Below are positions 4,015 through 33,717 of a DNA stretch of 64,000 bases, piece by piece. This DNA is from Aeromicrobium sp. Root472D3 (lineage in GTDB: Bacteria > Actinomycetota > Actinomycetes > Propionibacteriales > Nocardioidaceae). Where the stretch lies: positions 544,844 to 608,843 of the forward strand of contig NZ_LMET01000001.1 of assembly GCF_001426485.1 (NCBI RefSeq), written 5' to 3'. Positions within the stretch are counted from its first letter, which is position 1; the number at the start of each line of letters is the position of its first letter. The position numbers and the translations under genes are program-made. Under the pieces are notes generated by a model, which searched no databases, was not told where the DNA came from, and worked only from the letters and a program-made list of their open reading frames with translations.

Positions 4015-5312
4015 GGGGTCCAGACCGCGGGGGTCGCGGCGGTCGGGGTCGTGGTCGCCGGGGCGGGCGCGGTGGGCGTGGTGCTGGGGCTGGGTGCCGG
4101 GGTGGGCGGGGTGATGACGTCGAGCTCCTTGATGGTCTGCAGGGCGTCGGCCTTGCTCGAGGCCTCGATGCCGTCCTCGATCTCGCGACGCTGGAACTCG
4201 CTGAGCGACGTCAGCTCGATCTCGGTCGTCTCGTCGACGTGGCTCAGGGTGATGCCGGGGATGTCGGCCTGGACGCCGCGGTAGACCGCGACCTTCCCGT
4301 CGACGTCCGAGACGTAGTACTGGGTCTGCGACCACTGGTACGCGAAGTAGCCGGCGGCGGCGAGGATCGCCGCGAGCACGACGAGCCCGGCCGTCCACCG
4401 CACCCAGCGCCGCCGGCTAGGCGGTCGGGGGGCGTAGCGCAGCTCCTCGGGGTCGAAGGTCTGCTCACCGTCGGTGCGGGTCGTGTCGGTGCCCGCAGCG
4501 GCGTTGCCGGTGCGGGGACGCTGCTGGCTCGCGGCCGCGCCGACGAGCTGCGGCTGGCCGTCGGAGCACGACAGGTGCTCGTCGGGCTCGGTGTTCTTCT
4601 CGACGAACTCGGCGATCACGACGGTGACGTTGTCGACGCCGCCGCCCTCGAGGGCCAGGCGGATGAGCTCGGTCGCGGCCATGTCGATCGTCTCGGCGCC
4701 GAGGGCACGGGCGATCGCGGGGTCCTCGACCATGTCGGAGAGGCCGTCGCTGCACAGCAGGTAGCGATCGCCCAGCACGGGCTGCACCCAGCTGAGGTCG
4801 GCGCCGTTGTCGTCGCGGCCCAGCATCGCGCGCAGGATCAGCGAGCGGTGCGGGTGCGTGCGCGCCTCGGCCTTGGAGATGCGGCCCTCGTCGATCAGGC
4901 TCTGGACGAAGGTGTGGTCGGTGCTGATCTGCTGCAGGTCGTTGCCCCGCAGGCGGTAGACCCGCGAGTCGCCGATGTGCGCGAAGGCGAACTTCTCGCC
5001 GTCCCACAGCAGGGCGTCGAGCGTCGTGCCCATGCCCTCGACGGCGGGGTCGCGGGCGATGATGTCGGCCAGGCGCTGGTTGGCGTCGATGACGGCCCGG
5101 TCGAGGGCGTCGATCGCATCGATGTCGAGGTCGCGGTCGAGCTGGCGGATGACGTGGAGCGTCTCGGACGAGGCGATCTCGCCGGCGGCGGCACCGCCCA
5201 TGCCGTCGGCGATGACGAGCAGGTGGTCGCTCGCGTAGCCGGAGTCCTCGTTGTCGGCGCGGCGCAGACCCGTGTCGGTCAGGGCGACGTAGCGGTAGCT
5301 GAGGGCGGTCAT
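4011..5312 (-). CDS. pstP: PP2C-family Ser/Thr phosphatase PstP
   Basis: Metal-dependent phosphatase that reverses PknA/PknB phosphorylation of cell-wall proteins. 433 aa. The catalytic domain (1-236) carries the PP2C metal-site motifs RRADNEDSG, ADGMGG (35-40), HIGDSRVY, CSDGLSD and GGVDNVT. A disordered linker leads to a single membrane segment near 305-326, then a short extracellular part ending in a Pro/Thr/Ala-rich tail. It lies 3 bp after fhaB and overlaps rodA by 4 bp. Confidence 0.95.
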   Translation of the reverse strand: MTALSYRYVALTDTGLRRADNEDSGYASDHLLVIADGMGGAAAGEIASSETLHVIRQLDRDLDIDAIDALDRAVIDANQRLADIIARDPAVEGMGTTLDALLWDGEKFAFAHIGDSRVYRLRGNDLQQISTDHTFVQSLIDEGRISKAEARTHPHRSLILRAMLGRDDNGADLSWVQPVLGDRYLLCSDGLSDMVEDPAIARALGAETIDMAATELIRLALEGGGVDNVTVVIAEFVEKNTEPDEHLSCSDGQPQLVGAAASQQRPRTGNAAAGTDTTRTDGEQTFDPEELRYAPRPPSRRRWVRWTAGLVVLAAILAAAGYFAYQWSQTQYYVSDVDGKVAVYRGVQADIPGITLSHVDETTEIELTSLSEFQRREIEDGIEASSKADALQTIKELDVITPPTPAPSPSTTPTAPAPATTTPTAATPAVWTP

Positions 5313-6661: not shown

Positions 6662-6744
6662 GCGCGGGTGGCGGAATGGTAGACGCGCTGGCTTCAGGTG
6701 CCAGTGTCCGCAAGGGCGTGGGGGTTCAAATCCCCCCTCGCGCA
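6662..6744 (+). tRNA. tRNA-Leu, anticodon CAG
   Basis: An 83-nt type II tRNA. The acceptor stem GCGCGGG pairs with CTCGCGC (one G-U), the anticodon stem CTGGC/GCCAG frames the loop TTCAGGT with CAG at 6695-6697, a variable arm follows, and the T arm is GGGGG-TTCAAAT-CCCCC. CCA is not encoded. Its 3' end is part of a direct repeat found again at 18040, making it the apparent integration site of the neighbouring island. Confidence 0.95.
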
Positions 6745-6785
6745 CAGCACGACGAAGGGCCGGAACCTCAGGGTTCCGGCCCTTT
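6729..6785 (+). repeat. Direct repeat, tRNA end of the island (attL-like)
   Basis: Covers the last 16 nt of tRNA-Leu and its terminator. Bases 6729-6747 match 18040-18058 exactly (19 bp). Bases 6749-6785 match 18061-18097 exactly (37 bp). Between the two blocks this copy has one base and the distal copy has two. The arrangement is that of attachment sites left by integration into a tRNA 3' end. Confidence 0.8.
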
Positions 6786-6787
6786 TT
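6755..6787 (+). terminator. Intrinsic terminator of tRNA-Leu
   Basis: Perfect 13-bp stem (6755-6767 with 6772-6784), a 4-nt loop TCAG and a run of five T at 6783-6787. An almost identical copy lies at 18067-18097. Confidence 0.9.
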
Positions 6788-7037
6788 CAGTTCTGCAGCA
6801 ACTGTTCTGTCACACATGGTGCGGGTAGGAGTCGGCGACGCACTGGTTTGCGCGGACTTTCTCAGCCGGGCCCTGACCGGCACGTCGGTCGCGCGCATGG
6901 CTGCCGACGCGACGACTGGAATGTGTTCCGTTCCCGGAGGTTGTCGACGGGTCTGATGGTTGTCGCCGTGTCGTCATCGCGTGACCGGCTCTTCGCCGGG
7001 GTCGAGCCACCGCGTTGTGTGAACCGGCCCGTAGCCG

Positions 7038-7940
7038 TCACAGTGCCGAAACGACTGTCTGGACCGCTTCGATGATCGCTGTCACACCGCGGCGTTCTTG
7101 ATGGGAACTGGCGGAGTAGATGACGAGGTCGCGGCGGATGTCGTCCTCGAGTCGGACGACGCCGACGCCACGCTCAGGCGATAGTGCAAGCATCAGGTCG
7201 GTCAGCGGAGCAACTCCCAGGCCGGTCGACGCCAACGTCAGGGTGGCGGCCGTGTCGGTCAGCTCATGAGCCTCGATGGGCTCGAATCCGCGTTTGCGAC
7301 AGGCAGCCCTGATGGCCTGGCCCCACACGGTGTGCGGAGGTGGCAGGACCCACGGACTGTCGGCGAAGTCCAGGAGCCGCATCCTGCGTCCGGCGCGCTC
7401 ATCGTCGTGCCGGACGGCGATGCGGAGCTGCTCGGACCGCAGGCTGGTGGGCACCACGTCTGCGGGTTGCTCCACGGGTGCGTCGCCATATGTCAGGCCG
7501 AAGGACACGTCGACCCGACGCCGGGCCACGGCGTCTCCGACCTCGTCAAGGTCCACCTCACGACACCTGATCGTCAACCCGGGATGTGTTGCGCGCACGA
7601 GGTCGATGACCGGCGCCAGGAGCCCGGCAGCAGTGCTCCCCCAGGTCCCGAGGACGATCTCGTCGCGGATGTCGTCACCGACATCGGTCGCGGCGTCCAT
7701 CAAGCGTCGTTCCGCGGCCAGCATCGATCTTCCCTCGGACAGCACGATCCGGCCGACGTCTGTGAGCTCGACGAACCGCCCCGCCTTGGCCAGCACCGGA
7801 CGGCCGACCGTCCGACCGAGAGCGTCCATGTGCTGCGACAGCGCACCGGGGGTGTAGCCCAGCTCGTCCGCCGCAGCCGAGACGGTTCCAAGTCGTGCGA
7901 TCGCCTCGAGGGAGGAGAGATGGACCATGTTCACCCGCAT
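7038..7940 (-). CDS. LysR-family transcriptional regulator
   Basis: About 300 aa from the ATG at 7940; an in-frame ATG at 7928 is also possible, and the frame is open upstream to 8015. The winged-helix DNA-binding domain is at the N-terminus (GTVSAAADELGYTPGALSQH), followed by a periplasmic-binding-like effector domain. It lies 19 bp after the permease gene on the same strand, so it is probably co-transcribed with the hydrolase-permease pair. It may regulate them and the divergent flavoenzyme gene. The effector is unknown; an amino acid such as pipecolate or lysine would fit. Confidence 0.85.
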   Translation of the reverse strand: MRVNMVHLSSLEAIARLGTVSAAADELGYTPGALSQHMDALGRTVGRPVLAKAGRFVELTDVGRIVLSEGRSMLAAERRLMDAATDVGDDIRDEIVLGTWGSTAAGLLAPVIDLVRATHPGLTIRCREVDLDEVGDAVARRRVDVSFGLTYGDAPVEQPADVVPTSLRSEQLRIAVRHDDERAGRRMRLLDFADSPWVLPPPHTVWGQAIRAACRKRGFEPIEAHELTDTAATLTLASTGLGVAPLTDLMLALSPERGVGVVRLEDDIRRDLVIYSASSHQERRGVTAIIEAVQTVVSAL

Positions 7941-7959
7941 GGTCAAGGACGGTAGTCGC

Positions 7960-9354
7960 TCAGAACCCGTCGGCGGTGTCAAGCGACGTTCCGCGGCGAC
8001 CGAGGACGAAGGCAACCAGCAGCCCTGCGGCGAGCCAGCTCAGTCCCAGCACCTTGGCGTCGGTCGTCGTCTCCCAGAGGGCGTAGCCGAGCAGGCCGCC
8101 GCCGATGACCGGCGAGATGCAGTGGGCGAAGATCTTGCGGTCGCTCCCGCCAAGGACTCCGAAGCGGTACAGGACGCTGATGTGCAGCAGGATGTAGGCG
8201 GTCAGAGCTCCGAAGGTCACCAGCGTCGTCATCTCGGCGATGTGTCCGACGGCCGTCAGGCCGATGATGATCGAAAGCACCGTCACCACCGTCAGGGCGA
8301 CGATCGGTACGCCCCTGGTGGACAGCCGAGCGAAGGCGACGGGGAGCTGGCGGTCGCGAGCCATGCTGAAGATGAGCTTGGACGTGGTGGCCTGGGAGAC
8401 GAGCGTGTTGGCGAAGATGGCCACGAGGGCGGAGATGAGCGTGAAGACCGTCTGGAACCACGGGGACACGGCGACGCCCGCGATGTCGTAGAAGGCTGTG
8501 GCGGCCAGGTCCGAGTCGACGTAGGCGTCCGGGGTGGGCACGAAGATGGCCGCGAAGTAGACCTGGGCGATGAACAGCGCGGCGACGAGTCCGAGCACGA
8601 TCATGGTGGCCCGGGCGACCGTCTCGCCACCTCCCTTGGCTTCCTCGTTGAGGGTGGAGATCGCGTCGAACCCGACGTACGACAGGGCGGCGATGGGGAT
8701 GGCGCTGAAGACCAGCGACCAGGAGAAGTAGGTCGAGTCGAAGAAGGGCGTGAAGCTCAGCTGCGCGCGACCGGCTGCGACTGCGACGAGCGCGCCGCCG
8801 ACGAAGACGGAGATCGCGACGAGCTGGATGGCAAGGAAGACGAGGTTCATTCGCGCGGTGATGGAGATGCCGCGCACGTTGATGGCCGCTGCGACGCCGA
8901 CGAAGGGAACGATCCAGACCCAGGATGGGATCGAGGGGATCTCGCTGTTGATGGCTGCGGCGCCGAAGATGCCCAGCAGCGCCGGCAGCAACAGGTAGTC
9001 CAGCAGGATGGCCCACCCGGCGATGAAGCCGATGAGCCGGCCGGTGCCGAACCGTACATAGGAGTACACCGATCCCGCGACCGGGTAACGGGCTGCCATC
9101 TCCCGGTAGCTGACAGCGCTGAAGAACATGGCGATCGCCGCCACGAGGTAGACCAGTGCCACCTGGCCCTTGGAGAACTCGAACACCGCGCCGAACACGG
9201 CTGCCGGTGCGAGCGGGACCATGTAGATCAGGCCGTAAACGACGACATCGCGCAGGCTCATGGTGCGTTGCAGCGTCTGCTCGTACCCGAGGTCCTGGAG
9301 GCGGGTCTCTGCATCTGTGACGGGCGTGCGGGGTGCGTGATCGTGCGTGTCCAT
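7960..9354 (-). CDS. APC-superfamily amino acid permease
   Basis: 464 aa with about 12-13 hydrophobic helices in the APC order and no signal peptide. The first helix carries the family's unwound substrate motif region (GLIYMVPLAPAAVFG), and REMAARYPVAGSVYSY is the conserved cytoplasmic loop after helix 2. It should import an amino acid or amine by secondary transport. It overlaps the upstream hydrolase gene by one base (TGATG), so the two are made together. Given the adjacent catabolic genes, pipecolate, lysine or a peptide or amide-released amino acid is the likely substrate (inference). Confidence 0.88.
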   Translation of the reverse strand: MDTHDHAPRTPVTDAETRLQDLGYEQTLQRTMSLRDVVVYGLIYMVPLAPAAVFGAVFEFSKGQVALVYLVAAIAMFFSAVSYREMAARYPVAGSVYSYVRFGTGRLIGFIAGWAILLDYLLLPALLGIFGAAAINSEIPSIPSWVWIVPFVGVAAAINVRGISITARMNLVFLAIQLVAISVFVGGALVAVAAGRAQLSFTPFFDSTYFSWSLVFSAIPIAALSYVGFDAISTLNEEAKGGGETVARATMIVLGLVAALFIAQVYFAAIFVPTPDAYVDSDLAATAFYDIAGVAVSPWFQTVFTLISALVAIFANTLVSQATTSKLIFSMARDRQLPVAFARLSTRGVPIVALTVVTVLSIIIGLTAVGHIAEMTTLVTFGALTAYILLHISVLYRFGVLGGSDRKIFAHCISPVIGGGLLGYALWETTTDAKVLGLSWLAAGLLVAFVLGRRGTSLDTADGF

Positions 9355-10283
9355 CAGATGCTCCTGGAGGTGAGGTTCGAGTCGTGCTGGGCGAGGAAGT
9401 CTGAGAAGGCAGTCAGCGTGAGTTCCGGCTGCTCCAGGTGTGGGCAGTGGCTGGCGTTCGGGATGCGGAGGTACGCGGCTCCCGGGATCAGTCGGCGACT
9501 CGCGTCGACCACCAGATCAGTGGCTTCGTCGAACTCGCCGTGCAGGACGAGCGCCGGGACGGTGACTCGGTGGAGGTCGGCGTCACGGTCCCACGTCGCG
9601 AATGCGCCCACGACGTGGAACTCGGTGGGCCCGATGAGGGAGTAGTAGACGGTGGGGTCGTCGTCGCACGCCGCCAAGGTCGCCTGGAGATCGTCCGGCC
9701 AGGGGTCGAGACGACACAGGTGTCGGCGGTAGAACTCCGTGGTCGCCTCCGCGTACTCAGGCGAGTCCGTGGTGCCGGCCTCCTCGTGCGCCGCAAGCGT
9801 CTCTCGGACTGGCGCAGGCAGGAGTGATCGCAGTCGCGTCGCCTCGGCGGCCCAGGTGATCATGGACGACGGCGAGTCGGCCAAGATGACGGACCGCAGC
9901 CCTGCGCGGGTCTCGATGGCCCACTCGATGGCCAGCATGCCGCCCCAGGACTGGCCCAGGAAGTGGTAGCCGTCGTGGAGGCTGAAGTGGTCGACGAGAG
10001 CCTGAACCTCTTGGACGAACAGCGAGACCGTCCAGAAGTCTGCGTCGTGGAGGCGGTCGCGATAGTGGCTCGACCGCCCGTTGCCCACCTGGTCGTACAG
10101 GATGACGTCGCGCCCTGTCTTAGCCAGCGCCCTGAGGGGGCGCAGGTAGTCGTGAGTCATCCCGGGGCCCCCGTGGGAAACGATGACCGGGTCTCCTCGA
10201 CGTTCACCGACAGCGGGCCACAGTTGCGCCCACGTGGAGTGGCCGTCACCCCAGGTGACGACGTGCTCTTGCGGGTCTGACAT
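9354..10283 (-). CDS. Proline iminopeptidase-like S33 hydrolase or amino acid amidase
   Basis: Alpha/beta hydrolase of the prolyl aminopeptidase group, 309 aa. It shows the oxyanion motif HGGPG, the nucleophile elbow GQSWGG, the acid in GEFDE and the His in NASHCPH. No signal peptide, so cytoplasmic. The ATG at 10283 is chosen because GGAGG precedes it. S33 enzymes release N-terminal proline or hydrolyse cyclic amino acid amides such as prolinamide and piperidine-2-carboxamide. Next to a putative pipecolate pathway, an activity that frees pipecolate from an amide or peptide is attractive but unproven. Confidence 0.82.
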   Translation of the reverse strand: MSDPQEHVVTWGDGHSTWAQLWPAVGERRGDPVIVSHGGPGMTHDYLRPLRALAKTGRDVILYDQVGNGRSSHYRDRLHDADFWTVSLFVQEVQALVDHFSLHDGYHFLGQSWGGMLAIEWAIETRAGLRSVILADSPSSMITWAAEATRLRSLLPAPVRETLAAHEEAGTTDSPEYAEATTEFYRRHLCRLDPWPDDLQATLAACDDDPTVYYSLIGPTEFHVVGAFATWDRDADLHRVTVPALVLHGEFDEATDLVVDASRRLIPGAAYLRIPNASHCPHLEQPELTLTAFSDFLAQHDSNLTSRSI

Positions 10284-10387
10284 GGAGCCTCCAGCTCTTC
10301 GTGAATGAGGATGTGCGACGTGGGTCACGGTGCGATGAGTATCCCTAGGAGGTCGGACGGGGACCAGCGAGAGATCCTCGCAAGAGT

Positions 10388-10407
10388 CCTTTAGAGATGC
10401 TCAAAGG
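10388..10407. promoter_or_regulatory. Imperfect inverted repeat, candidate LysR operator
   Basis: CCTTTAGAG and CTCAAAGG flank a 3-bp centre within the 225-bp gap between the divergent hydrolase and flavoenzyme genes. Its position suits a regulator acting on both, but the symmetry is short. Confidence 0.35.
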
Positions 10408-10508
10408 TGACGTTTCAGCAGGCCTGAGGTGCGTGGTTCACGAACTGTCGCTTGTGCGACGGCGCCTCGGCGGGCGAGGGTCGAACCCCCGACCCAAGGA
10501 GAGCTCCA

Positions 10509-11669
10509 GTGCCACCCGCCGCCTTCCCCGCCCGCGCGTCCGTTGTCATCGTCGGCGGCGGGGTCATGGGTCTGAGCTCTGCTTTCCACCTCGCGCTGGC
10601 CGGCGTCGAGGACGTCGTCTTGGTCGAGAAGGGCGCGCTCGGTGAGGGTTCGACATGCAAGGCCGCCGGCGGGGTGCGAGCGCTGTTCTCCGACGAGATC
10701 AACATCCGGCTCGGTGAGCGCAGTCTGCGGACGTTCGAGGAGTTCGGCACGCAGTTCGACCAGGAGATCGATCTTCACCAGGTCGGCTACCTCCTGCTGG
10801 CCGACAACGACGAGACGATGTCAGCGTTCGAGGAGAACGTGGAGCTCATGACGAGCCTCGGGCTCGCCGCCCGTACGGTGAGTGTCGCCGACGCCAAGAG
10901 GCTGTCGCCGCTCATCGCGACCGAGGATCTTGTCGGAGGTCTGTGGTCGCCACGCGACGGGCACTGCACCCCCGAGTCCGTCGTGGCCGGCTACGCGAAG
11001 GCCGCGCGGAGAGCCGGGGTGCGCATCCTGACCGGCACGGAGGTGACCGACATCGAGGTCGCTGACGGCAGGGTCGCCGCTGTCCGGACCAGCGCCGGCA
11101 TGATCGCGACCGACGCGGTCGTGTGTGCTGCAGGCGCGTGGTCGGCCGACATTGCCAGCTGGGCAGGGGAGGACCTTCCCATCGTCCCGCTTCGTCGACA
11201 GATCGCAGTGACCGAACCACTCGGGGTCGACCTGACCGGTACGCCCTTCACCATCGACTTCTCGACGATGTTCTACTTCCACGGGGAGGGTCGAGGTCTG
11301 CTCATGGGCGCGCCCGAGGCCACGGACTCGGAAGGCTTCGACATCTCGCGTGATCCCGACTGGCTCGAGACCCTCGCAGAATGCATGGATCGCCGTGTCC
11401 CGGCGCTCGGCGACGTCGGGCTGCAGAGCGGATGGGCCGGCCTGTACGAGATGACGCCGGACCACAACGCCGTGATCGGATCCTCCGATGTCGTGGAGGG
11501 GTTCATCTACGCTGCGGGGTTCTCCGGCCATGGTTTCCTGATGGGCCCGGCCGTCGGTGAGGTCGTGCGTGACCTCTATCTGGGCAAGGAACCGTTCGTC
11601 GATGTGTCTCCCATGCACGCGCGCCGCTTTCACAACGCTGGCGAGCGTCCGGAACGCAACATCATCTGA
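10509..11669 (+). CDS. FAD-dependent amino acid oxidoreductase, pipecolate/sarcosine oxidase-like (DAO family)
   Basis: 386 aa from a GTG with AAGGAG 6 bp upstream. The N-terminal Rossmann motif VIVGGGVMG binds FAD. EKGALGEGSTCKAAGGVR and the C-terminal GFSGHGFLMGPAVGE are typical of the DAO/sarcosine oxidase family, which oxidises secondary amines (sarcosine, proline, pipecolate). Divergent from the hydrolase-permease genes; its stop overlaps the convergent LysR gene by 8 bp. With an ALDH7 enzyme downstream, oxidation of L-pipecolate to piperideine-6-carboxylate is the best prediction. A D-amino acid or sarcosine substrate cannot be excluded. Confidence 0.85.
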   Translation: MPPAAFPARASVVIVGGGVMGLSSAFHLALAGVEDVVLVEKGALGEGSTCKAAGGVRALFSDEINIRLGERSLRTFEEFGTQFDQEIDLHQVGYLLLADNDETMSAFEENVELMTSLGLAARTVSVADAKRLSPLIATEDLVGGLWSPRDGHCTPESVVAGYAKAARRAGVRILTGTEVTDIEVADGRVAAVRTSAGMIATDAVVCAAGAWSADIASWAGEDLPIVPLRRQIAVTEPLGVDLTGTPFTIDFSTMFYFHGEGRGLLMGAPEATDSEGFDISRDPDWLETLAECMDRRVPALGDVGLQSGWAGLYEMTPDHNAVIGSSDVVEGFIYAAGFSGHGFLMGPAVGEVVRDLYLGKEPFVDVSPMHARRFHNAGERPERNII

Positions 11670-12585
11670 CCGTCGACGGTGCTGGAGAGAGGCGCCCGAC
11701 GTGATGGATCGCGTCCAGCACGGCACGCACGGTCGGGCGCTGTGAAGTCGTCCTTCGCGCGACGAGGAGCAGCCGCCGGCTCAGGACAGGATCGACCAGT
11801 CGTCGCATCTCGACAGGGGCGACCGTGTCCGCGACGGCCCGTCGCGGCAGCAGGGTGATCCCGGCGCCGCGTGACACGGTCGCGACGAGTAGAAGCAGGT
11901 CATCGGTCTCCCAAGCGACGTCGGGCTCGAACCCCGCAGCGCGACAGGCGTGTCGCGTGGCGGCTCCGCATGCGGTGGTGGACGGCGGCATCACCCACGG
12001 CTGGTCCTTCAGGCTGGCCAGCGCGACCCGTCGAGGCAGGTCGGCGTCACAGGCCGAAACCAGGACGAGCGGCTCGGTCAGGACCTCCTCGACGAGGAGG
12101 TGCGAGGGCATGGCGACGGGCACATGGTCGTACACGTCGATGAGCGCCAGGTCGACACTGCCGCCGTCGACCTCGTCCAAGCTCTCACCAGGTTCTCGTT
12201 CGACGACCGACAGAGCGACCCCAGGAGCAGTCTGTTCGAGGACCTTCTCGGCAGGCAGCAGCAGGGCTGCAGCGCCCGAGGCGATCGTCGCGACGCGGAC
12301 TCGTCCGGCTAGCTCGCCGCTGAGCTGTGCGATCGTCGACCGGGCGTCGTCGAGCTGACGGGCGAGCTTCTCGGCGTGCTCCAGCAACGAGAGACCTGCG
12401 CCGGTCAGGACAGTACCGGTCGCCGTCCGCTCGACGATGGGGGTAGCGCAGTCCGCCTCTAGGGCTGAGATCTGCTGTGACACCGCCGAGGTGGTGATGC
12501 CAAGGGACGCGGCAGCCCCCGTAAGACTTCCGTGACGGGCGACGTAGATCAGGGTGATGAGTCGTTGGACCTCGGCACGCGACAT
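11662..12585 (-). CDS. LysR-family transcriptional regulator
   Basis: 307 aa from the ATG at 12585, preceded by AAAGGAG; the open frame runs on to 12612. The N-terminal helix-turn-helix is in GSLTGAAASLGITTSAVSQQ, followed by the usual substrate-binding domain. Divergent from the aldehyde dehydrogenase operon, with a 9-bp inverted repeat between them. It therefore most likely controls the ALDH-dehydrogenase-DUF1338 genes, possibly with a pathway intermediate such as 2-aminoadipate as co-inducer (inference). It resembles the other island LysR in length and organisation. Confidence 0.88.
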   Translation of the reverse strand: MSRAEVQRLITLIYVARHGSLTGAAASLGITTSAVSQQISALEADCATPIVERTATGTVLTGAGLSLLEHAEKLARQLDDARSTIAQLSGELAGRVRVATIASGAAALLLPAEKVLEQTAPGVALSVVEREPGESLDEVDGGSVDLALIDVYDHVPVAMPSHLLVEEVLTEPLVLVSACDADLPRRVALASLKDQPWVMPPSTTACGAATRHACRAAGFEPDVAWETDDLLLLVATVSRGAGITLLPRRAVADTVAPVEMRRLVDPVLSRRLLLVARRTTSQRPTVRAVLDAIHHVGRLSPAPSTVR

Positions 12586-12602
12586 GACTGCTCCTTTAAT
12601 TC

Positions 12603-12634
12603 TGCTAAACACTCTAGGCCAACACTGTTTAGCA
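12603..12634. promoter_or_regulatory. Inverted repeat between LysR and ALDH genes, probable operator
   Basis: TGCTAAACA (12603-12611) and TGTTTAGCA (12626-12634) are perfect 9-bp arms around a 14-bp centre. Symmetric, AT-rich repeats in the divergent gap next to a LysR gene are the usual binding sites of such regulators. Confidence 0.65.
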
Positions 12635-12649
12635 CGTCACGGTGAAGGT

Positions 12650-14164
12650 ATGAGACTTTCGCGTGACGTTCTGGACATCCTCGGCCGGCTCGGCGCCGGC
12701 GACCCCTTCGACGACGCTGGAGAGCTGCCAGCGGTGTCGCCGGTCGACGCGCAGGAGATGGGCCGACTGTCCGCCCACTCGGCGGACGACGTCACGGAGA
12801 CTGTCGGCCGGGCACACGAGGCGTACCTGGAGTGGAGGTCGGTCCCAGCGCCTGTTCGCGGCGCACTGGTCCGCGAGCTGGGTGAGCTGCTGCGCGAGCA
12901 CAAGGACGACCTCGGCGCCCTCGTGTCCATCGAGGCCGGCAAGATCCTCAGTGAGGGCCTCGGCGAGGTGCAGGAGATGATCGACATCTGCGACCTCGCT
13001 GTCGGCCTGTCGCGCCAGCTGCACGGCCTCACCATCGCCACGGAGCGGCCCGGCCACCGGATGATGGAGCAGTGGCACCCGCTCGGGGTCATCGGCGTCA
13101 TCAGTGCCTTCAACTTCCCGGTCGCCGTGTGGTCCTGGAACGCGGCGCTCGCGTTCGTCGCCGGAGACGCCGTTGTGTGGAAGCCGTCCGAGAAGACCTT
13201 GCTCACCGCGCTGGCCTGCCAGGCGCTCGCCGAAGAGGCGTGCCGGCGCGTCGGAGCTCCGAACCACCTGTCGCAGGTGGTGCTCGGAACTCGAGAGGTG
13301 GGTCAGGCGCTCGTCGACGACCTCCGGGTGCCGCTGATCTCAGCCACCGGATCGACCCGCATGGGCAAGGAGGTCGCTCCGCGTGTCGCGGAACGCCTCG
13401 GTCGCTCCCTGCTCGAGCTCGGCGGCAACAACGCCGCGATCGTCGCCCCGTCGGCCGATGTCGACCTGGCCGTGCGCGGCATCGTGTTCTCGGCCGTCGG
13501 CACGGCCGGCCAGCGGTGCACGTCTCTACGCCGCCTCATCGTCCACGAGTCGATCAAGGACGATGTCGTCGCGCGCCTGAAGGCCGCGTACGAGACGCTG
13601 CCGATCGGCTCGCCGCTGGAGCCGTCGACCTTGGTCGGCCCGCTGGTCGACGAAGCGGCTTTCGAGGGCTTCACCGCTGCCGTCGCTCGCGCCCAGGACG
13701 ACGGCGGCGTCCTCGTCACCGGTGGTGTCCAGGACCACGACGCCGGCAAGGCAGCAGGAGGCGGCTACTACGTGCAGCCCGCAATCATCGACATGCCGAG
13801 CCAGACGGGCGTCGTCAAGGAGGAGACGTTCGCGCCCATCCTCTACGTCCTGACCTACGACACGTTCGACGAGGCGCTGAGCCTCCACAACGAGGTGACG
13901 CAGGGTCTGTCGTCGTCGATCTTCACCCTCGACGTCCGCGAGGCCGAGACGTTCGTGTCCGTCGTCGGCTCCGACTGCGGCATCGCCAACGTCAACATCG
14001 GCCCCTCAGGCGCCGAGATCGGTGGCGCGTTCGGTGGCGAGAAGGAGACCGGCGGCGGACGCGAGTCGGGCTCCGACGCGTGGCGGAACTACATGCGCCG
14101 CACGACCAACACGGTCAACTACTCGACCGAGCTGCCGTTGGCGCAGGGCGTGGAGTTCGTCTGA
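12650..14164 (+). CDS. Antiquitin-type aldehyde dehydrogenase (alpha-aminoadipic semialdehyde/P6C dehydrogenase)
   Basis: NAD(P)-dependent oxidation of 2-aminoadipate 6-semialdehyde, the open form of piperideine-6-carboxylate, to 2-aminoadipate. 504 aa from the ATG at 12650. ALDH7 (antiquitin) hallmarks are clear: Asn155 in SAFNFPV, Lys178 in WKPSEK, Glu256 in LELGGNNA, nucleophile Cys290 in GQRCTSLRR, and the C-terminal GAEIGGAFGGEK, GGGRESGSDAW and LPLAQG. This subfamily is quite specific to lysine degradation. The next gene overlaps its stop by one base, so the two are coupled. Confidence 0.92.
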   Translation: MRLSRDVLDILGRLGAGDPFDDAGELPAVSPVDAQEMGRLSAHSADDVTETVGRAHEAYLEWRSVPAPVRGALVRELGELLREHKDDLGALVSIEAGKILSEGLGEVQEMIDICDLAVGLSRQLHGLTIATERPGHRMMEQWHPLGVIGVISAFNFPVAVWSWNAALAFVAGDAVVWKPSEKTLLTALACQALAEEACRRVGAPNHLSQVVLGTREVGQALVDDLRVPLISATGSTRMGKEVAPRVAERLGRSLLELGGNNAAIVAPSADVDLAVRGIVFSAVGTAGQRCTSLRRLIVHESIKDDVVARLKAAYETLPIGSPLEPSTLVGPLVDEAAFEGFTAAVARAQDDGGVLVTGGVQDHDAGKAAGGGYYVQPAIIDMPSQTGVVKEETFAPILYVLTYDTFDEALSLHNEVTQGLSSSIFTLDVREAETFVSVVGSDCGIANVNIGPSGAEIGGAFGGEKETGGGRESGSDAWRNYMRRTTNTVNYSTELPLAQGVEFV

Positions 14165-15321
14165 TGCTTGAGCTCATCGACGAATGGGGTCCCGAAAAGG
14201 TCGTCATGGTCTCCGACCGGCGCACCGGCATGAAGGGCGTGCTCGTCATCGACAACACTGCCCTCGGCATGGGCAAGGGTGGCACTCGGATGAGTCCCAC
14301 CCTGACGGTCGACGAAGTGGCGCGGCTCGCGCGCACGATGACCTGGAAGTGGGCCGTCAGCGGTCTGTTCCACGGCGGCGCCAAGGCGGGCATTCGTAGC
14401 GACCCTTCCGCGCCGGACAAGGAGGCCGTGCTGCGGGCCTTCGCCCGCAGGCTTGCCAATGAAGTGCCGTCCGAGTACGTCTTCGGGCTGGACATGGGAC
14501 TGACGGAGAACGACGCCGCGATCATCTCCGACGAGCTGGGACGAGGATCTGCCGTGGGCCTTCCCGCCGAACTGGGAGGTCTCCCCTACGACCAGCTTGG
14601 CATCACCGGCTTCGGGGTCGCAGAGGCGACTGATGCCGCTGCTCAGTCCTCCGGACTGACGATGCAAGGCGCGCGCGTCGCCATTCAAGGCTTCGGTGCC
14701 GTCGGCGTCGCGGCGGGGCTTCGCCTGGTTGCGCTCGGCGCAACCGTCACAGCCATCGCGACCAGCAAGGGGACCCTCGTGGCACCCGACGGACTCGACG
14801 TGGAACGTCTGGTGTCGTTGCGAAACGACGAGGGTCACGGGGACGAGGTGGTCGCGGTCTACGACGACCCGAGTGCTCATCATGTCCCGGATGCGTCGGC
14901 AGTTCTCGACGTTCCCGTCGACATCCTGGTGCCGGCCGCCCGCGAGGACGTGATCCATCACGACGTGGCTCGGCGCACGACCGCCCAGCTGGTCGTCGAA
15001 GGAGCGAACATGCCAACGACCCCCGAGGCGCGTGCCATCCTGCACGAGCGGGGCGTGATCCTCGTCCCCGACTTCATCGCCAACGCGGGCGGCATCGTGG
15101 CCGCCGCCTTCTCGATGGACGCCCGCCACTCGGCGTTCGCAACCGACCCCGACCGTGTCTTCGCCTCGGTGTCAGCAACGATGCGCAGCAACACGCGCAC
15201 TGTTCTCGACGAGAGCGCACGAACCGGCTCTGCCCCGCACGAAGCCGCCTGGGGCCTGGCCCAGGACCGGGTCCGGACCGCAATGACCTTGCGCGGACAG
15301 GTGACGGGGGAAGCGCGATGA
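14164..15321 (+). CDS. Glu/Leu/Phe/Val-type dehydrogenase, proposed 2-aminoadipate dehydrogenase
   Basis: 385 aa. The N-terminal substrate domain contains the catalytic lysine motif FHGGAKAGIR (Lys74) and GLDMGLTENDAA. The C-terminal Rossmann domain has GFGAVG and, near the end, PDFIANAGGIV. Family members oxidatively deaminate an amino acid with NAD(P). Placed between the P6C dehydrogenase and the 2-oxoadipate enzyme, and coupled to both (TGATG upstream, ATGA downstream), it should deaminate 2-aminoadipate to 2-oxoadipate. Described HglS pathways use an aminotransferase for this step. Substrate is inferred from context only. Confidence 0.85.
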   Translation: MLELIDEWGPEKVVMVSDRRTGMKGVLVIDNTALGMGKGGTRMSPTLTVDEVARLARTMTWKWAVSGLFHGGAKAGIRSDPSAPDKEAVLRAFARRLANEVPSEYVFGLDMGLTENDAAIISDELGRGSAVGLPAELGGLPYDQLGITGFGVAEATDAAAQSSGLTMQGARVAIQGFGAVGVAAGLRLVALGATVTAIATSKGTLVAPDGLDVERLVSLRNDEGHGDEVVAVYDDPSAHHVPDASAVLDVPVDILVPAAREDVIHHDVARRTTAQLVVEGANMPTTPEARAILHERGVILVPDFIANAGGIVAAAFSMDARHSAFATDPDRVFASVSATMRSNTRTVLDESARTGSAPHEAAWGLAQDRVRTAMTLRGQVTGEAR

Positions 15322-16532
15322 GCGTGACGCAGACTGAGCTCCGAACTCGCTTTGCCGCGAGCCTCTCGGAGTTGTACGGCAGCGAGGTACCCGCCTACAA
15401 CACGCTCGTCGAGGTCTCCCAGGAGGTCAACGCCGAGGTCCTGGCGAAGCGCCCTGATGCCGAACGACTCGGCACGATCGAGCGGGTCACCGCGGAGCGG
15501 CACGGTGCCATCCGTGTCGGCACACCTCAGGAGCTCGCCGAGGTGGGCAGGGTGTTCGGTGCGTGCGGCATGTACCCGGTCGGCTTCTACGACCTGCGGG
15601 AGGCCGCGCCACCCATCCCCGTCGTGTCGACCGCGTTCCGGCCCGTCGACAGGGCTGAGCTGGCGGTGAACCCGTTCCGGGTGTTCACGTCGATGCTCGT
15701 GGTCGACGACCGGCGGTTCTTCGACGAGAGCACGGAGAACGATCTGCGCGAGTTCCTCGAGGCTCGACGGATCTTTCCCGACGAGCTCCTGGGGCTGGCC
15801 GATCGGATGGAGCGTGACGGGTCGCTCGAGGAGGCACACGCGGACAGGTTCATCGAGCTGGCGACTGCGGCTTTCGCCCTGTCTCCCGAACCCGTGGACC
15901 GGGCTTGGTACGAGCGGCTGGAGGCCATCTCGAGCGTCGCGGCGGACATCGGCGGGGTGTCGTCGACCCACATCAACCACCTCACGCCACGCGTTCTCGA
16001 CATCGACGCGCTCTACGAACGGATGACGGCTCGAGGTGTCGAGATGATCGATCGCATCCAAGGGCCGCCGCGCACTTCCGACGACGAGCCGGACGTCCTG
16101 CTACGGCAGACCTCGTTCCGTGCGCTCGCTGAACCGCGCGCGTTCCGCGAGTCCGATGGATCGGTCGTCAGAGACTCCTTGAGTGTCCGGTTCGGCGAGG
16201 TCGAGCAGCGGGGCGTTGCGTTGACGCCGGCGGGACGAGAGCTGTACGACCTACGTGGGCTGGACGCCTTGCCGCGCACCGACGAGGCCCTGCACGCCGC
16301 AGACCTCGCCTACTACGCGCGGTCGGCGGCCGGAGAGCTGCAGCCGATCGTGTATGAGGACTTCCTGCCGAAGTCGGCTGCCGGGATCTTCGCGTCCAAC
16401 CTCACCGGGGATGGCCGGTCGGACGCCTCGCAACGCGCCTCGCGGCGCGACGCGTCATGGCTGCGTGACGTGCTGGGTCGCGAGCTGTACGACCCGTACG
16501 CGCTGTACGAGGCAGAACGCGCTGGTGACTGA
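15318..16532 (+). CDS. hglS: 2-oxoadipate dioxygenase/decarboxylase (DUF1338, HglS/YdcJ family)
   Basis: 404 aa. Non-haem Fe(II) enzyme that converts 2-oxoadipate and O2 to D-2-hydroxyglutarate and CO2 in lysine catabolism. Family active-site positions are present: His62 and Arg66 in ERHGAIRVG, His218 in THINHLTPR and Glu294 in RFGEVEQRG. These match in order and spacing the iron ligands and substrate Arg known from Pseudomonas putida HglS. Starts at an ATGA overlap with the dehydrogenase gene. No D-2-hydroxyglutarate dehydrogenase is in the window, so the last step must be encoded elsewhere. Confidence 0.9.
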   Translation: MSVTQTELRTRFAASLSELYGSEVPAYNTLVEVSQEVNAEVLAKRPDAERLGTIERVTAERHGAIRVGTPQELAEVGRVFGACGMYPVGFYDLREAAPPIPVVSTAFRPVDRAELAVNPFRVFTSMLVVDDRRFFDESTENDLREFLEARRIFPDELLGLADRMERDGSLEEAHADRFIELATAAFALSPEPVDRAWYERLEAISSVAADIGGVSSTHINHLTPRVLDIDALYERMTARGVEMIDRIQGPPRTSDDEPDVLLRQTSFRALAEPRAFRESDGSVVRDSLSVRFGEVEQRGVALTPAGRELYDLRGLDALPRTDEALHAADLAYYARSAAGELQPIVYEDFLPKSAAGIFASNLTGDGRSDASQRASRRDASWLRDVLGRELYDPYALYEAERAGD

Positions 16533-16539
16533 GGAAGGC

Positions 16540-17910
16540 GTGAACTCCGGCGGCGAACGGATGGTGGTCGTCGTCGGAGACACCCTGCTGGCGTCGCGGC
16601 TGTGTGCGTCGGTGCAGGCCGAGCCTGGGTTCAGCACCACCCACCTCGTTGCTCCGTGCGACTCGACGCTCCTGGTGGCACTGGCGCAAGAAGGAGTGGA
16701 GGCGGTCGTCATCGCAGTCCACGAGGACGTTGCCGCGCTCCGCCACGCCTTGGTCGTAGCCGACGCTGATCCACATCTTCAGACGATCGTCACGGTCTTC
16801 GACCAGACCATGAAGGAGCGCCTTGGACAGCTCTGGCCGCACCTCGAGATCGTGTCGCCGGCGGAGATCGTGGCCCCCAGCCTCGCTGGTCCATGCGTGC
16901 TGCCGGGAGCACTGGCGGCGTGGACGGACGGCGATCGTCCCTACGTCCTCTCCGACCCGGTCGATGGACCCAGAGAGCTGGTTCGTCCACCGTCAGTCTG
17001 GCCGAAGGGGGTTGCCGGTCTGCGGGATCGTCTCCGACAAGTCGTCCTCGGGGCACACTTGGGACAGACCACCAGCACGCGGATGCTGGTGGTGGGAACG
17101 GGTGGGGTGGGTGTTGTTCTTTTCGCGGACTTTGTGTGGCTCATCAGCATGGGTGTGCCGCCGGCAGAGGCGTTCTTCGATGCAGCCCGCGTCGTCTCTA
17201 CGGTGGGGCCGGCGGTGGCGCATGGTGGCGATGCCTACATGGTGTTTGCGGGACTGGCGATGCTGGCGACGATCGCATTCAGCGCCGTGCTGACGGCGGG
17301 TTTCATCGAGAGGTTCCTCGAGCCGCGAGTCCTCAGTTTGTTCGGGTCACGACGCCCCCCACGATCGGGTCACGTCGTCGTGATCGGGATGGGTCAGGTC
17401 GGCTTGCGGCTGTGTGTCGAGCTCAGGCGCCTCGGTATCCGGGTCATAGGCCTCGAACGCGACTCGCGCGCTCCTGCCCTGCGGGTCGCGCAAGCCCTCA
17501 AAGTCCCAGTTGTTCACGGGCACGGGACCGACAGGCAGACGCTTGAACGGCTCAGTTGTAAGGGCGCGAGGGCCATTGCGACGGTCGGCTCGGACGATCT
17601 GGACAACATCGCAGTTGCCGTCAGCGTCAGCGCACTCGTTCCTCACGTACCTGTCGTGATCCGCGCCGGCGAGCATGAGGTCATCGCGCGCCCACGATCC
17701 TTCGAGGGGCTTGGGCACCTCCGTGATGTGGCAGACCTAGCTACTGTTTACGTGCGGGCTCGCTTGATGGGGCGCGACGTCGACCTTGTGGCAACGGACG
17801 GTGAGACCACCTACCTGATCGTCGGTACGCGGTGTGTCGAGACGGTGCGCCGCGACCCCAAGCTCGGTTGCAGGCACGAGATGCCGCAGGTGGCCACGGC
17901 GCGACAGTAG
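16540..17910 (+). CDS. Two-TM membrane protein with N-terminal Rossmann-like domain and C-terminal RCK (TrkA-N) domain
   Basis: About 456 aa from the GTG at 16540; a GTG at 16525 and an ATG at 16561 are alternatives. Residues 8-120 look like a degenerate nucleotide-binding domain (VVVVGD). Two membrane helices (about 182-204 and 232-256) flank a pore-like loop STVGPAVA. A complete TrkA-N/RCK Rossmann domain follows from 277, with GMGQVG and LERD. The overall order resembles RCK-gated K+ channels, but the canonical filter TVGYGD is not conserved. It starts 8 bp after hglS, so it is expressed with the catabolic genes; its role there is unknown. Confidence 0.75.
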   Translation: MNSGGERMVVVVGDTLLASRLCASVQAEPGFSTTHLVAPCDSTLLVALAQEGVEAVVIAVHEDVAALRHALVVADADPHLQTIVTVFDQTMKERLGQLWPHLEIVSPAEIVAPSLAGPCVLPGALAAWTDGDRPYVLSDPVDGPRELVRPPSVWPKGVAGLRDRLRQVVLGAHLGQTTSTRMLVVGTGGVGVVLFADFVWLISMGVPPAEAFFDAARVVSTVGPAVAHGGDAYMVFAGLAMLATIAFSAVLTAGFIERFLEPRVLSLFGSRRPPRSGHVVVIGMGQVGLRLCVELRRLGIRVIGLERDSRAPALRVAQALKVPVVHGHGTDRQTLERLSCKGARAIATVGSDDLDNIAVAVSVSALVPHVPVVIRAGEHEVIARPRSFEGLGHLRDVADLATVYVRARLMGRDVDLVATDGETTYLIVGTRCVETVRRDPKLGCRHEMPQVATARQ

Positions 17911-18039: not shown

Positions 18040-18097
18040 AATCCCCCCTCGCGCACAGGAACGACGAAGGGCCGGAACCTCAGGGTTCCGGCCCTTT
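18040..18097 (+). repeat. Direct repeat, distal end of the island (attR-like)
   Basis: Carries the final tRNA-Leu bases and the terminator without the rest of the tRNA. Exact matches to the proximal copy are 18040-18058 and 18061-18097. The sequence just to its left (about 17990-18039) shows no further homology to the tRNA. Confidence 0.8.
18067..18097 (+). terminator. Duplicated tRNA-Leu terminator
   Basis: Same 13-bp stem and TCAG loop as at 6755, followed by three T then CTCG, so the T tract is shorter than in the original. No tRNA body precedes it. Confidence 0.7.
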
Positions 18098-18173
18098 CTC
18101 GTCGCGGTGCAGCGACCGGAACGTGTTCCACGAACCCGCGATGGACGATGGCGGCGCGCCCCGACGACCGACA

Positions 18174-18226: not shown

Positions 18227-19168
18227 TCAGCTGAAGTCGAGCACGATGCGTCCACGCACCCCGCCGCCGGCCAGCAGCTTGTGGGCCTCCGCCGCCTGCT
18301 CGGCCGGGAAGGTCGTGGCCACCCGCAACGTCAGCGTGCCGTCCTCGGCCTGCTGACGGAGGCGGTCGAGCTTGTCGGTGTGGCCGACGGCGGACGAGAC
18401 GAAGATCGGGTGCACCGAGATGTCGCGGTCGGTCGGACCGTCCCACCCGCGGATGGTCACCAGCGCCCCGCCGTCCTTGATGGCCGCGAGCGTCTGGTCG
18501 ATCTGCACGGAACCGTCGGCCAGGCCGTCGACGCCCTCGGGCACGGCGGCGCGGATGGCGGCGGCCACGTCGTCGCCGCGGGGGACGACGATGTCGGCGC
18601 CCAGGTCGCGGACGAGGTCCTCCTCGCCCTCCTTCGCGTCGGCGACGACGCGCAGGCCGTCGGCCTTGGCCAGCTGCACGACGAATCCGCCGAATGCGCC
18701 GACCGCGCCGGTGACGGCGACGGTCCCGCCGGCCGGGACGGCCATCTCGTCGAGGGCCAGGCGCGCGGTGAGCGCGTTCATGAGCAGGGTCGCCGCGGCT
18801 GCGTCGTCGGCACCGGCGGGTGCGGGGACGACCTGCTCGGCAGGCAGCACGATCTGGTCCTGGTAGGCGCCACGCGTCTCGCTGAGGGGAGCGACGACGG
18901 CGATCACGCGGTCGCCGACCGCGAACCGGTCGACACCCGGCCCGATCGCGTCGACGACGCCGGACAGGTCCATGCCAGGGACGTGCGGCCCGGGCGGCAC
19001 CTCGCCGTCGCGGTAATAGGCACCGCGGATCATCGCGGTGTCGGTGGGGTTGACGGTCGCGGCGTGGACGCGGATGCGGATCTGGCCGTCCTGCGGATCC
19101 TGCACAGGAAGGTCGAGCACCTCCAGGTCGTCCTCGTCGCCGGGCATGGGCACTCCGATGGCTCGCAT
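18227..19168 (-). CDS. Zinc-independent MDR-family NADPH:quinone oxidoreductase
   Basis: 313 aa. Medium-chain reductase fold: N-terminal GroES-like part with HAATVNPTD and GMDLSGVV, then a Rossmann domain with VTGAVGAFGG for NADPH. The structural and catalytic zinc Cys residues of alcohol dehydrogenases are absent, which places it with quinone or enone reductases. It is the first gene past the island's distal repeat and is followed by a hairpin. Physiological substrate unknown. Confidence 0.85.
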   Translation of the reverse strand: MRAIGVPMPGDEDDLEVLDLPVQDPQDGQIRIRVHAATVNPTDTAMIRGAYYRDGEVPPGPHVPGMDLSGVVDAIGPGVDRFAVGDRVIAVVAPLSETRGAYQDQIVLPAEQVVPAPAGADDAAAATLLMNALTARLALDEMAVPAGGTVAVTGAVGAFGGFVVQLAKADGLRVVADAKEGEEDLVRDLGADIVVPRGDDVAAAIRAAVPEGVDGLADGSVQIDQTLAAIKDGGALVTIRGWDGPTDRDISVHPIFVSSAVGHTDKLDRLRQQAEDGTLTLRVATTFPAEQAAEAHKLLAGGGVRGRIVLDFS

Positions 19169-19326: not shown

Positions 19327-20028
19327 TCAGCTGGTCGCCTCGAAGGCGCGAACCATCTGCGCACACGCGCGGTCGAGGTAGGCACGGAGGTGTCGTGCAG
19401 CCTCTTCGACGTCGCCGCTCTCGATGAGCTCGCAGATCGTCACGTTGTCGGTCAGGTAGGGGTCGTGGAAGTCCTTCAGAGGAGTCATGACATGGAACGC
19501 GAGACGCTGCTCGGCGAGCAGCTGACTCATCGTCGCGTCGAGGCGACGGTTGCCGGCCAGACCCGCTATCGCGAGGTGGAAGTGCATGTTCGCGGTGCCG
19601 AGCCCCCGCCAGTCCTCTGCCTCCGCGGCTGAGAGCCCCTCGGTCACGGCCAGTCGGATCTTGCTCTTCTGAGCCTGGGTGTGCCGTTCGGTCTGGGCGA
19701 GCGCCGACGTCTCCAGCATCGTGCGGAACTGGTAGATCGACGTGACGTCGTCCGCGGTGAGCTCGCGGACGAAGACCCCCCGGTTCATCTCGTGGACGAG
19801 CAGCTTCTCGTGCGCCAGGATGCGGAACGCCTCGCGCAGCGTGTTGCGTGACACCGACATGGCGGCGGCGAAGGCTTCTTCCGACAGGCGCGTGCCGGGG
19901 ACGATGCGTCCCTCGATCAGATAGCCCCGGAGCACGTCGACGACGCGCTCAGCGGTGCTCGCCGCGACGGGCGCAGGCCTGCCCGCGAACAGGTCCGCCA
20001 CGACGTCGAGGCCGTGGGTCTGAGTCAT
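19327..20028 (-). CDS. GntR/FadR-family transcriptional regulator (FCD domain)
   Basis: 233 aa. Winged helix at about 25-90 (LSEEAFAAAMSVSRNTLREAFRIL), followed by an all-helical FCD ligand domain with metal-site His residues (MHFHLAIAGL). Divergent from the ABC transporter/5-oxoprolinase operon across a 222-bp gap, so it is the obvious candidate local regulator, probably a repressor released by a small organic acid or a pathway intermediate. 158 bp separate its stop from the reductase start; nothing else is seen there. Confidence 0.9.
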   Translation of the reverse strand: MTQTHGLDVVADLFAGRPAPVAASTAERVVDVLRGYLIEGRIVPGTRLSEEAFAAAMSVSRNTLREAFRILAHEKLLVHEMNRGVFVRELTADDVTSIYQFRTMLETSALAQTERHTQAQKSKIRLAVTEGLSAAEAEDWRGLGTANMHFHLAIAGLAGNRRLDATMSQLLAEQRLAFHVMTPLKDFHDPYLTDNVTICELIESGDVEEAARHLRAYLDRACAQMVRAFEATS

Positions 20029-20154
20029 GTGAGGTCCTGTCCTGAGAAGATTCCCGCAGCGTAGCGCGGATCGCTCAACAAATCACCCGTTTTCAGCCGC
20101 CGCTTTATTGCCGTGATGTTAAGGAGTTTCAGGGGCGTTAAAGGTCAAGTAAAA

Positions 20155-20179
20155 GGATTGCAGAATGTGTGAACAATCC
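20155..20179. promoter_or_regulatory. Inverted repeat in the GntR/ABC intergenic region
   Basis: GGATTG (20155-20160) and CAATCC (20174-20179) are 6-bp arms around a 13-bp AT-rich centre, 72 bp before the substrate-binding protein start. The whole 20029-20250 gap is AT-rich for this genome and should hold both promoters. Assignment as the GntR operator is inference. Confidence 0.4.
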
Positions 20180-20250
20180 GTATCGTCCTTCGTACTGTGG
20201 TCGAGGCCACACCCACCCAGCCTCCTTGGCTCGACATCGAAGGACTGAAC

Positions 20251-21420: not shown

Positions 21421-21426
21421 CACCAG

Positions 21427-22878: not shown

Positions 22879-22903
22879 CCCTGAACCCTCCGGAGACGAG
22901 AAC

Positions 22904-23920: not shown

Positions 23921-23947
23921 CACACCACGAGCCAAGGAGCACGACAC

Positions 23948-26031: not shown

Positions 26032-26080
26032 TCCCCTCATCGCACCCCACCCCACCTCACCGCAACGAAAGGGCACCTCT

Positions 26081-30791: not shown

Positions 30792-30798
30792 GACCGCG

Positions 30799-31608: not shown

Positions 31609-31690
31609 AGGTCATGCCTTCCGTCCCGGATGTGAGCGTCATTCTCGCACGGCACCGCGCCCTCGACGCCCCCGTGCGATGATCCCGGGC

Positions 31691-32311: not shown

Positions 32312-32314
32312 CCC

Positions 32315-33187: not shown

Positions 33188-33227
33188 GCGTCCAGCGTGC
33201 CAGACCCGACGGACCACCCGTCGTCCG

Positions 33228-33659: not shown

Positions 33660-33717
33660 GACGATGGCGTACCCGAGGACGATCGGATCAATCCGCCGCA
33701 GCCGCTATCGTCGGCGC

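Follow-up and report, generated by a model that had tools for sequence, protein, structure and literature searches.

The operon described here lies in a 64,000-nt stretch of Aeromicrobium sp. Root472D3 (assembly GCF_001426485.1, contig NZ_LMET01000001.1, positions 544,844–608,843, forward strand), hereafter the window, on an island of about 6.73–18.10 kb bounded by copies of a tRNA-Leu end. The core operon comprises three forward-strand genes whose stops overlap the next starts: L-piperideine-6-carboxylate (2-aminoadipate semialdehyde) dehydrogenase of the ALDH7 type (P6CDH, 12650–14164); GDHx, an ELFV-family enzyme predicted to be a deaminating L-2-aminoadipate dehydrogenase (14164–15321); and HglS, 2-oxoadipate dioxygenase/decarboxylase (15318–16532). 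The P6CDH/GDHx junction is TGATG at 14162–14166. The hglS start falls within the end of GDHx, whose stop is at 15321. For P6CDH, ATG 12650 is a better start than 12554. Upstream stands a DAO-family flavoenzyme, predicted L-pipecolate oxidase/dehydrogenase (10509–11669, forward strand), for which GTG 10509, behind AAGGAG, is better than the open reading frame start at 10452. A Pfam scan of the cluster proteins detected no aminotransferase.

P6CDH exceeds its curated NCBIfam cut-off (NF050084, 813 bits against 730), as does HglS (NF050083, 614 bits against 600; Pfam PF07063, 403 bits). H70, R74, H226 and E294 of P. putida HglS align to identical residues (alignment to 6w1g). The metal triad H70-H226-E294 and the substrate Arg74, with roles as given in PMC7286885, are kept; Val402 is replaced by Lys and Ser403 is kept. 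The family assignments, predicting a P6C dehydrogenase and a 2-oxoadipate dioxygenase/decarboxylase, are strong, in agreement with a preliminary description of this DNA that had made both calls.

GDHx carries both ELFV domains (PF00208 and PF02812) above gathering score; the catalytic Lys/Lys/Asp are K62, K74 and D110. It reaches no curated equivalog cut-off. The best solved-protein matches are glutamate dehydrogenases (GDH), and GDHx keeps the lysine by which GDH binds the side-chain carboxylate. GDHx could on this evidence be an ordinary NAD-dependent GDH, its role being to resupply 2-oxoglutarate to a 2-aminoadipate aminotransferase whose gene lies elsewhere; further PF00155 proteins are encoded in the genome outside the cluster, and HglS loci without GDHx must use another amino-removing enzyme. 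Such a function is improbable. GDH equivalog models are missed by far (NF040817, 182.6 bits against 750; NF041398, 174.7 against 620). A canonical GDH with a K/A/S pocket is already encoded at 29529–30788 of the window, outside the island, the cluster holds no aminotransferase, and the pocket of GDHx differs as follows.

GDHx sequences were aligned with 30 fetched ELFV proteins, taken from the best-scoring loci rather than drawn at random, and five earlier ones; the 31 GDH rows represent 30 genes (L166 is the same gene as L002). In 80 of 81 GDHx rows the pocket columns, which we take to be K89, K113, K125, A163, D165, N373 and S380 of C. symbiosum GDH, show K-K-K-G-D-N-A, and in one row K-K-Q-G-D-N-A; all 31 GDH rows show K-K-K-A-D-N-S. 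Ala to Gly (A163G) and Ser to Ala (S380A), at positions 108 and 314 of the window's enzyme, are found in 81/81 GDHx and 0/31 GDH rows. An alignment with T. maritima GDH pairs the same pocket residues with GDHx. For E. coli GDH, PMC8784811 describes K92 and S380 as contacting the gamma-carboxylate in docking and K116 as binding the main-chain carboxylate in structures, and gives the catalytic lysine as K126, 10 residues past K116. The 24-residue spacing of K92 and K116 equals that of K38 and K62 in GDHx; the catalytic lysine of GDHx lies 12 residues past K62, against 10 in the published E. coli numbering. We provisionally take the E. coli catalytic lysine to be residue 128, at odds with that numbering. 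The kept lysine, Ala to Gly and Ser to Ala are together what would be expected of a pocket enlarged to take an acid with one carbon more than glutamate.

The acid-binding lysine column is Lys in 81/81 GDHx; a leucine dehydrogenase (LeuDH)-like paralogue has Leu there, and each of three proteobacterial relatives has Ile or Val. GDHx shares with the paralogue a short N-terminus (shorter than in GDH) and a GGTR motif, as a leucine/valine/phenylalanine-type dehydrogenase present in the operon by chance might; given the lysine and the linkage to pathway genes, this is very unlikely. Proteobacterial plasmid relatives (42–45% identity; three examined of 541 records) were considered as members of GDHx and set outside it because of Ile or Val at this position. 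The annotated one of the three, L084, adjoins other genes; the records of the other two are unannotated at that place.

Genome contigs were scanned with the GDHx sequence alone, and the best 80 of 113 confirmed relatives (57–69% identity) were retained; their organisms we take to be Actinomycetota. Genes in the fetched loci were called by a codon-usage caller. The 2-oxoacid dehydrogenase E1, glutaryl-CoA dehydrogenase (GCDH), YdiJ-like, OCD/mu-crystallin-family, lysine 6-aminotransferase (LAT) and saccharopine-dehydrogenase-family (LysDH) proteins were each profile-scanned on one representative, OCD on two in NCBIfam, and counted in other loci by similarity. GDHx is rare: of 398 genomes sampled from the phylum it occurs in 2, including the window's own. 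HglS (E 1e-40 or better) occurs in 14/398, or 13/397 without the window's genome. The preliminary description had suggested a survey for GDH genes near hglS, and the association recurs: HglS is encoded in 44 of the 80 loci gathered by GDHx alone (at least 35% identity, within the fetched stretch, partial matches at locus ends included), against 13/397 other genomes of the phylum, and the linkage is therefore more than chance. P6CDH (at least 55% identity) is present in 50/80 loci, a DAO relative (at least 40%) in 55/80 and a YdiJ-like D-2-hydroxyglutarate dehydrogenase in 23/80 (representative 491 bits with NF049975, under the cut-off of 1350). At least one of HglS, P6CDH and E1 is found in 70/80. 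Gene orders vary among 82 loci: DAO-GDHx-E1 in 15, DAO-HglS-P6CDH-GDHx-YdiJ in 14, and GDHx-HglS-DAO-P6CDH, HglS-P6CDH-GDHx-DAO, GDHx-HglS-P6CDH and many others in small numbers. The same gene set in varied orders points to repeated reassembly, which is stronger evidence than one inherited order. The arrangement is not unique to this island; it is thinly spread over Actinomycetota.

The enzyme downstream of GDHx is exchanged between loci. HglS only is found in 43 of the 80, E1 only in 21, both in one and neither in 15. Thus E1 is present in 21/36 loci without HglS, to which a tblastn recount adds L057. In the representative L035 the E1 is fused (E1_dh and transketolase domains). A GCDH relative is present in L004, L005, L017 and L057; that of L017 has as its best solved match glutaryl-CoA dehydrogenase 3sf6 (2e-181). 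Genome G100, drawn from the phylum sample by GDHx alone, has GCDH-E1-P6CDH-GDHx-DAO relatives on one strand within about 7 kb. Parsimony on the GDHx tree gives 14 changes of HglS and 10 of E1. The trees are quick ones; for those of HglS and P6CDH, sequences had to pass bit-score and length thresholds, which left 63 and 65 rows.

An L-2-aminoadipate dehydrogenase is the best reading of GDHx, because the HglS and E1 ends can both consume 2-oxoadipate: the shared intermediates would be 2-aminoadipate upstream and 2-oxoadipate downstream, with GDHx constant between them. We hold this assignment with good confidence. The preliminary description had proposed that a GDH-family enzyme deaminates 2-aminoadipate in an island-borne HglS route; of the readings considered, this appears the best supported, by the linkage, the exchange of E1 and HglS, the enlarged pocket with its acid-binding lysine, and the tRNA-Leu island. 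Its statement that the enzyme occupies the slot of an aminotransferase holds for a metabolic slot but not for a gene position, as the LysDH-P6CDH-HglS loci of the genus likewise have no class I/II aminotransferase match (nine-query scan).

Aminotransferases were searched for in 103 loci with nine queries from the window's genome and one LAT. With the nine, a match over 55 bits was obtained in 6/103 loci, and in five of these it lies at least 4 kb from GDHx. The sixth is L065 (Georgenia ruanii). Its GDHx is the only one with Gln at the catalytic lysine and deviates at 7 of 122 near-invariant columns, where no other GDHx deviates at more than 3; this contrast is helped by the choice of columns, which was made from the remaining 80 rows. 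In the same gene run (8001–11381), 1.3 kb downstream of GDHx and behind an OCD gene, lies a frame for a class I/II aminotransferase (PF00155, 190 bits) that stops short of the end of the profile. Perhaps the aminotransferase is a natural replacement. As an exception, L065 would fit the assignment of GDHx to L-2-aminoadipate, in one case only.

Several findings weigh against this assignment or the pathway around it. The aminotransferase search could miss distant members. Neither HglS nor E1 is present in 15/80 GDHx loci (14 once the recount adds L057), and HglS, P6CDH and E1 are all absent from 10/80 (9 with L057). A few loci without pathway genes are short contigs (L014, L047, L069); others adjoin MmgE/PrpD, TPP-enzyme or unknown genes. 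The one E1 scanned, from L035, stays below cut-off and matches only pyruvate dehydrogenase (PDH)-type models; the single GCDH relative scanned, from L017, reaches 200.9 against the NCBIfam glutaryl-CoA dehydrogenase cut-off of 470. The exchange of HglS and E1 is clumped on the tree, with Saccharopolyspora supplying 14 of the 22 E1 loci, and an underpowered independent-pairs test gave means of 0 pairs the same way, 2.3 opposite and 5.7 without difference (median p 0.5). The DAO flavoenzyme fails the AmaA L-pipecolate oxidase model (NF050086, 78 bits, cut-off 600). Nor is GDHx indispensable to the HglS route: 25 of 27 sampled HglS genomes are without it, and three fetched loci combine DAO, HglS and P6CDH without GDHx (L097, L104, L106).

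In the Saccharopolyspora loci the aldehyde dehydrogenase is only 36–41% like P6CDH. In L049, L078, L016 and L022, GDHx stands beside MmgE/PrpD genes (Phytohabitans) or an uncharacterised 445-aa protein (Allokutzneria; no Pfam match at 1e-5), and these neighbours possibly represent other fates or substrates.

The entry enzymes are assigned less closely. The preliminary description called the flavoenzyme pipecolate-oxidase-like; membership of the DAO family is clear (PF01266, 255 bits), and with the AmaA model missed the call stands at family level only. Its nearest solved chain is 1y56_B (E 3.3e-60), labelled sarcosine oxidase, which we take to be a proline dehydrogenase subunit. The enzyme may act like a pipecolate oxidase without belonging to AmaA, and from family and context L-pipecolate is its likely substrate. 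With the flavoenzyme placed only in its family, and with an S33 hydrolase of the proline-iminopeptidase family in the cluster, a different cyclic imino acid or amine might be degraded, GDHx then acting on a related dicarboxylic amino acid, for example a substituted 2-aminoadipate. This is unlikely, given that P6CDH and HglS exceed their curated cut-offs and that HglS keeps R74; among the 2-oxoacids tested, P. putida HglS accepted only 2-oxoadipate, according to PMC7286885. An OCD/mu-crystallin-family protein is moreover encoded in 30/80 GDHx loci, and for each of the two scanned (L081, L065) one of the two top models is that of piperideine-2-carboxylate reductase, with a score below cut-off.

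A catabolic route for L-pipecolate, and perhaps for pipecolyl amides or peptides, with GDHx as L-2-aminoadipate dehydrogenase feeding HglS, is quite probably what the island encodes. The APC-family permease would import the substrate, and the S33 hydrolase may release it; as feeders of the pathway both are weakly indicated. The flavoenzyme would, judging from family and context, convert L-pipecolate to piperideine-6-carboxylate, opening to 2-aminoadipate semialdehyde. The ALDH7 enzyme would oxidize the semialdehyde to L-2-aminoadipate. GDHx, as linkage, downstream exchange and pocket suggest, would convert L-2-aminoadipate and NAD(P)+ to 2-oxoadipate and free ammonia, so that no aminotransferase or 2-oxoglutarate would be needed. 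HglS, Fe(II)-dependent, would then convert 2-oxoadipate and O2 to 2-hydroxyglutarate and CO2. A YdiJ-like D-2-hydroxyglutarate dehydrogenase elsewhere in the genome (C1:912982) could oxidize 2-hydroxyglutarate to 2-oxoglutarate. Its gene (G000:C1:912982-915828) is a 976-aa open frame of 47% identity with no internal stop, and adjoins weak matches to aldehyde dehydrogenase and class III aminotransferase. A second YdiJ-like gene, at G000:C1:1253479-1256328, has one internal TGA counted.

HglS was detected in 27/295 sampled genomes of the class, GDHx in two of these (the window's genome and G286); 20 of the 27 HglS sites were fetched, besides the window's own. GDHx is therefore an optional variant; the other HglS loci presumably transaminate. 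A second hglS, 76% identical, lies at C1:1808329 in the window's genome, as part of a LysDH-P6CDH-HglS locus (L089, G000:C1:1800000-1818000) common to seven congeners (L089-L096 set). A LysDH homologue in L004 resembles 3abi (PH1688), which we take to be an L-lysine dehydrogenase. LAT is present in four fetched loci (TIGR03251, 743 bits for L107).

The island is bounded on the left by tRNA-Leu (CAG) (6662–6745, forward strand; ARAGORN). The left repeat copy, holding the tRNA 3' end and terminator hairpin, occupies 6729–6788 on the forward strand (sequence comparison), and the right copy, tRNA-Leu 3' end and terminator, 18040–18100 on the forward strand, where it was recognised by comparison with a congener. 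A 40-nt repeat of the left copy is 98% identical to 18061–18100, and its tRNA 3' end AATCCCCCCTCGCGCACAG recurs at 18040. The long tRNA pattern, searched as an attachment repeat, gave one match only, because the right copy holds only the last part of the tRNA. No integrase was found among the predicted gene products between the repeats. The adjacent PP2C gene (4011–5312) is present in 11/11 genomes of the genus, and FHA genes (fhaA) with tRNA-Leu(CAG) in 8/8 fetched congener regions; at a threshold of 35% identity across half the length, none of these eight regions holds a gene of the island, and GDHx occurs in 1/11 genus genomes, the window's only. In congener G211 the site is empty: a gene with 92% identity to that at window 18230–19168 comes within about 220 bases after the tRNA. 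The direct repeats of the tRNA 3' end and this empty site bear out the island-borne position proposed in the preliminary description. A second fragment of the tRNA end is present as well in the short site of G211; the island site may have been used before.

The window's HglS and P6CDH fall in the LysDH-type groups of the genus (SH-aLRT 100, quick trees) and are not grouped with those that accompany GDHx elsewhere, except that the P6CDH of L004 (Amycolatopsis) lies in the group of the genus. On our reading, GDHx would have been inserted between P6CDH and HglS genes of the type that the genus itself carries. In L004 (Amycolatopsis sp. GM8), P6CDH shares 89% identity with the second P6CDH of the window's genome, a probable transfer between families; LysDH, GDHx, E1, GCDH and LAT are also present. 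Nor does the G211 region show 19330–34464, which encodes a GMC oxidoreductase and a sugar-type ABC transporter and is read as a second accessory block; matches to the transporter's ATPase in 10 congeners do not exceed 41%.

The remaining features flank the operon. LysR-family regulator 2 (LysR2, 11662–12612, reverse strand; PF00126, PF03466; coding-score start 12585) is divergent from P6CDH. Between them, at 12603–12634, lies an operator-like perfect inverted repeat, TGCTAAACA-N14-TGTTTAGCA, with perfect 9-bp arms, one match in the window and 0 in 100 shuffles; over 16-nt arms the identity is 81%. LysR2 and this repeat probably control P6CDH-GDHx-HglS. Left of the flavoenzyme, on the reverse strand, are an S33 proline-iminopeptidase-family hydrolase (9354–10328; TIGR01250, 220 bits against a cut-off of 167.65), with homologues in L012 and L031, an APC-family amino-acid permease, the predicted substrate importer (7960–9354; PF13520, PF00324), and LysR-family regulator 1 (7038–8015; PF00126, PF03466). 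A TrkA-N domain protein (16525–17910, forward strand; PF02254) follows the core operon; its gene overlaps the hglS stop and looks co-transcribed. It has no NCBIfam match at 1e-10. A 43% homologue lies about 7 kb from GDHx in the Nocardioides immobilis stretch L005. The preliminary description listed the cluster from 9354 onward as hydrolase, permease, flavoenzyme, ALDH7 enzyme, dehydrogenase and HglS. The open reading frames exist at the coordinates it named, and profile scans matched the S33, DAO, ALDH7, GDH and HglS families, so that families and positions are right. The permease and LysR1 lie outside its start, and LysR2, between the flavoenzyme and P6CDH, was omitted; the contiguity of P6CDH, GDHx and HglS is as it had described.

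The D-lysine/pipecolate route of P. putida comprises AmaA, AmaB, a 2-aminoadipate aminotransferase, HglS and YdiJ. The window would share with it the intermediates from pipecolate to 2-hydroxyglutarate and has the same P6CDH and HglS families; it differs in a GDH-family dehydrogenase in place of the aminotransferase, a DAO flavoenzyme not of AmaA type, and genes clustered with LysR regulators. Actinobacterial LysDH-P6CDH-HglS and LAT-HglS-P6CDH loci likewise have P6CDH and HglS, and the window's copies belong to the LysDH-type clades of the genus. These loci differ in having no GDHx and in entry by a saccharopine-dehydrogenase-family enzyme or a lysine 6-aminotransferase, not DAO. With glutamate dehydrogenases (ELFV; 2tmg, 1b26) GDHx shares the domain family, the catalytic lysines and aspartate, and the side-chain-carboxylate lysine, but differs in Ala to Gly and Ser to Ala in the pocket, a shorter N-terminus and scores far below the GDH equivalog cut-offs. 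The glutaryl-CoA route proceeds by 2-oxoadipate dehydrogenase and glutaryl-CoA dehydrogenase. It too would use 2-oxoadipate, and E1 stands beside GDHx in the loci counted above, a few with a GCDH relative; genes of this route are absent from the window cluster (Pfam scan). No published 2-aminoadipate dehydrogenase, and no GDH gene beside hglS, was recognised among the matches listed in the open-access literature. New relative to the known HglS route would be the substrate of GDHx and the modular exchange of the downstream enzyme.

On sequence evidence, the GDHx subfamily is probably a portable actinobacterial module that would feed 2-oxoadipate to either HglS or a 2-oxoacid dehydrogenase with GCDH, two sinks that would be interchangeable. 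In the window it would be set between genus-type P6CDH and HglS on a tRNA-Leu island, where pipecolate would be degraded with release of ammonia and no transamination. A substrate is thereby proposed for a coherent enzyme group that curated models leave unassigned, and pocket positions are predicted that would switch specificity from glutamate to 2-aminoadipate. The neighbouring gene (HglS, or E1 with or without GCDH) would tell the fate of 2-oxoadipate. A 2-aminoadipate dehydrogenase could serve for making or sensing 2-aminoadipate and 2-oxoadipate. If the assignment is true, bacteria could use pipecolate as a nitrogen source without transamination.

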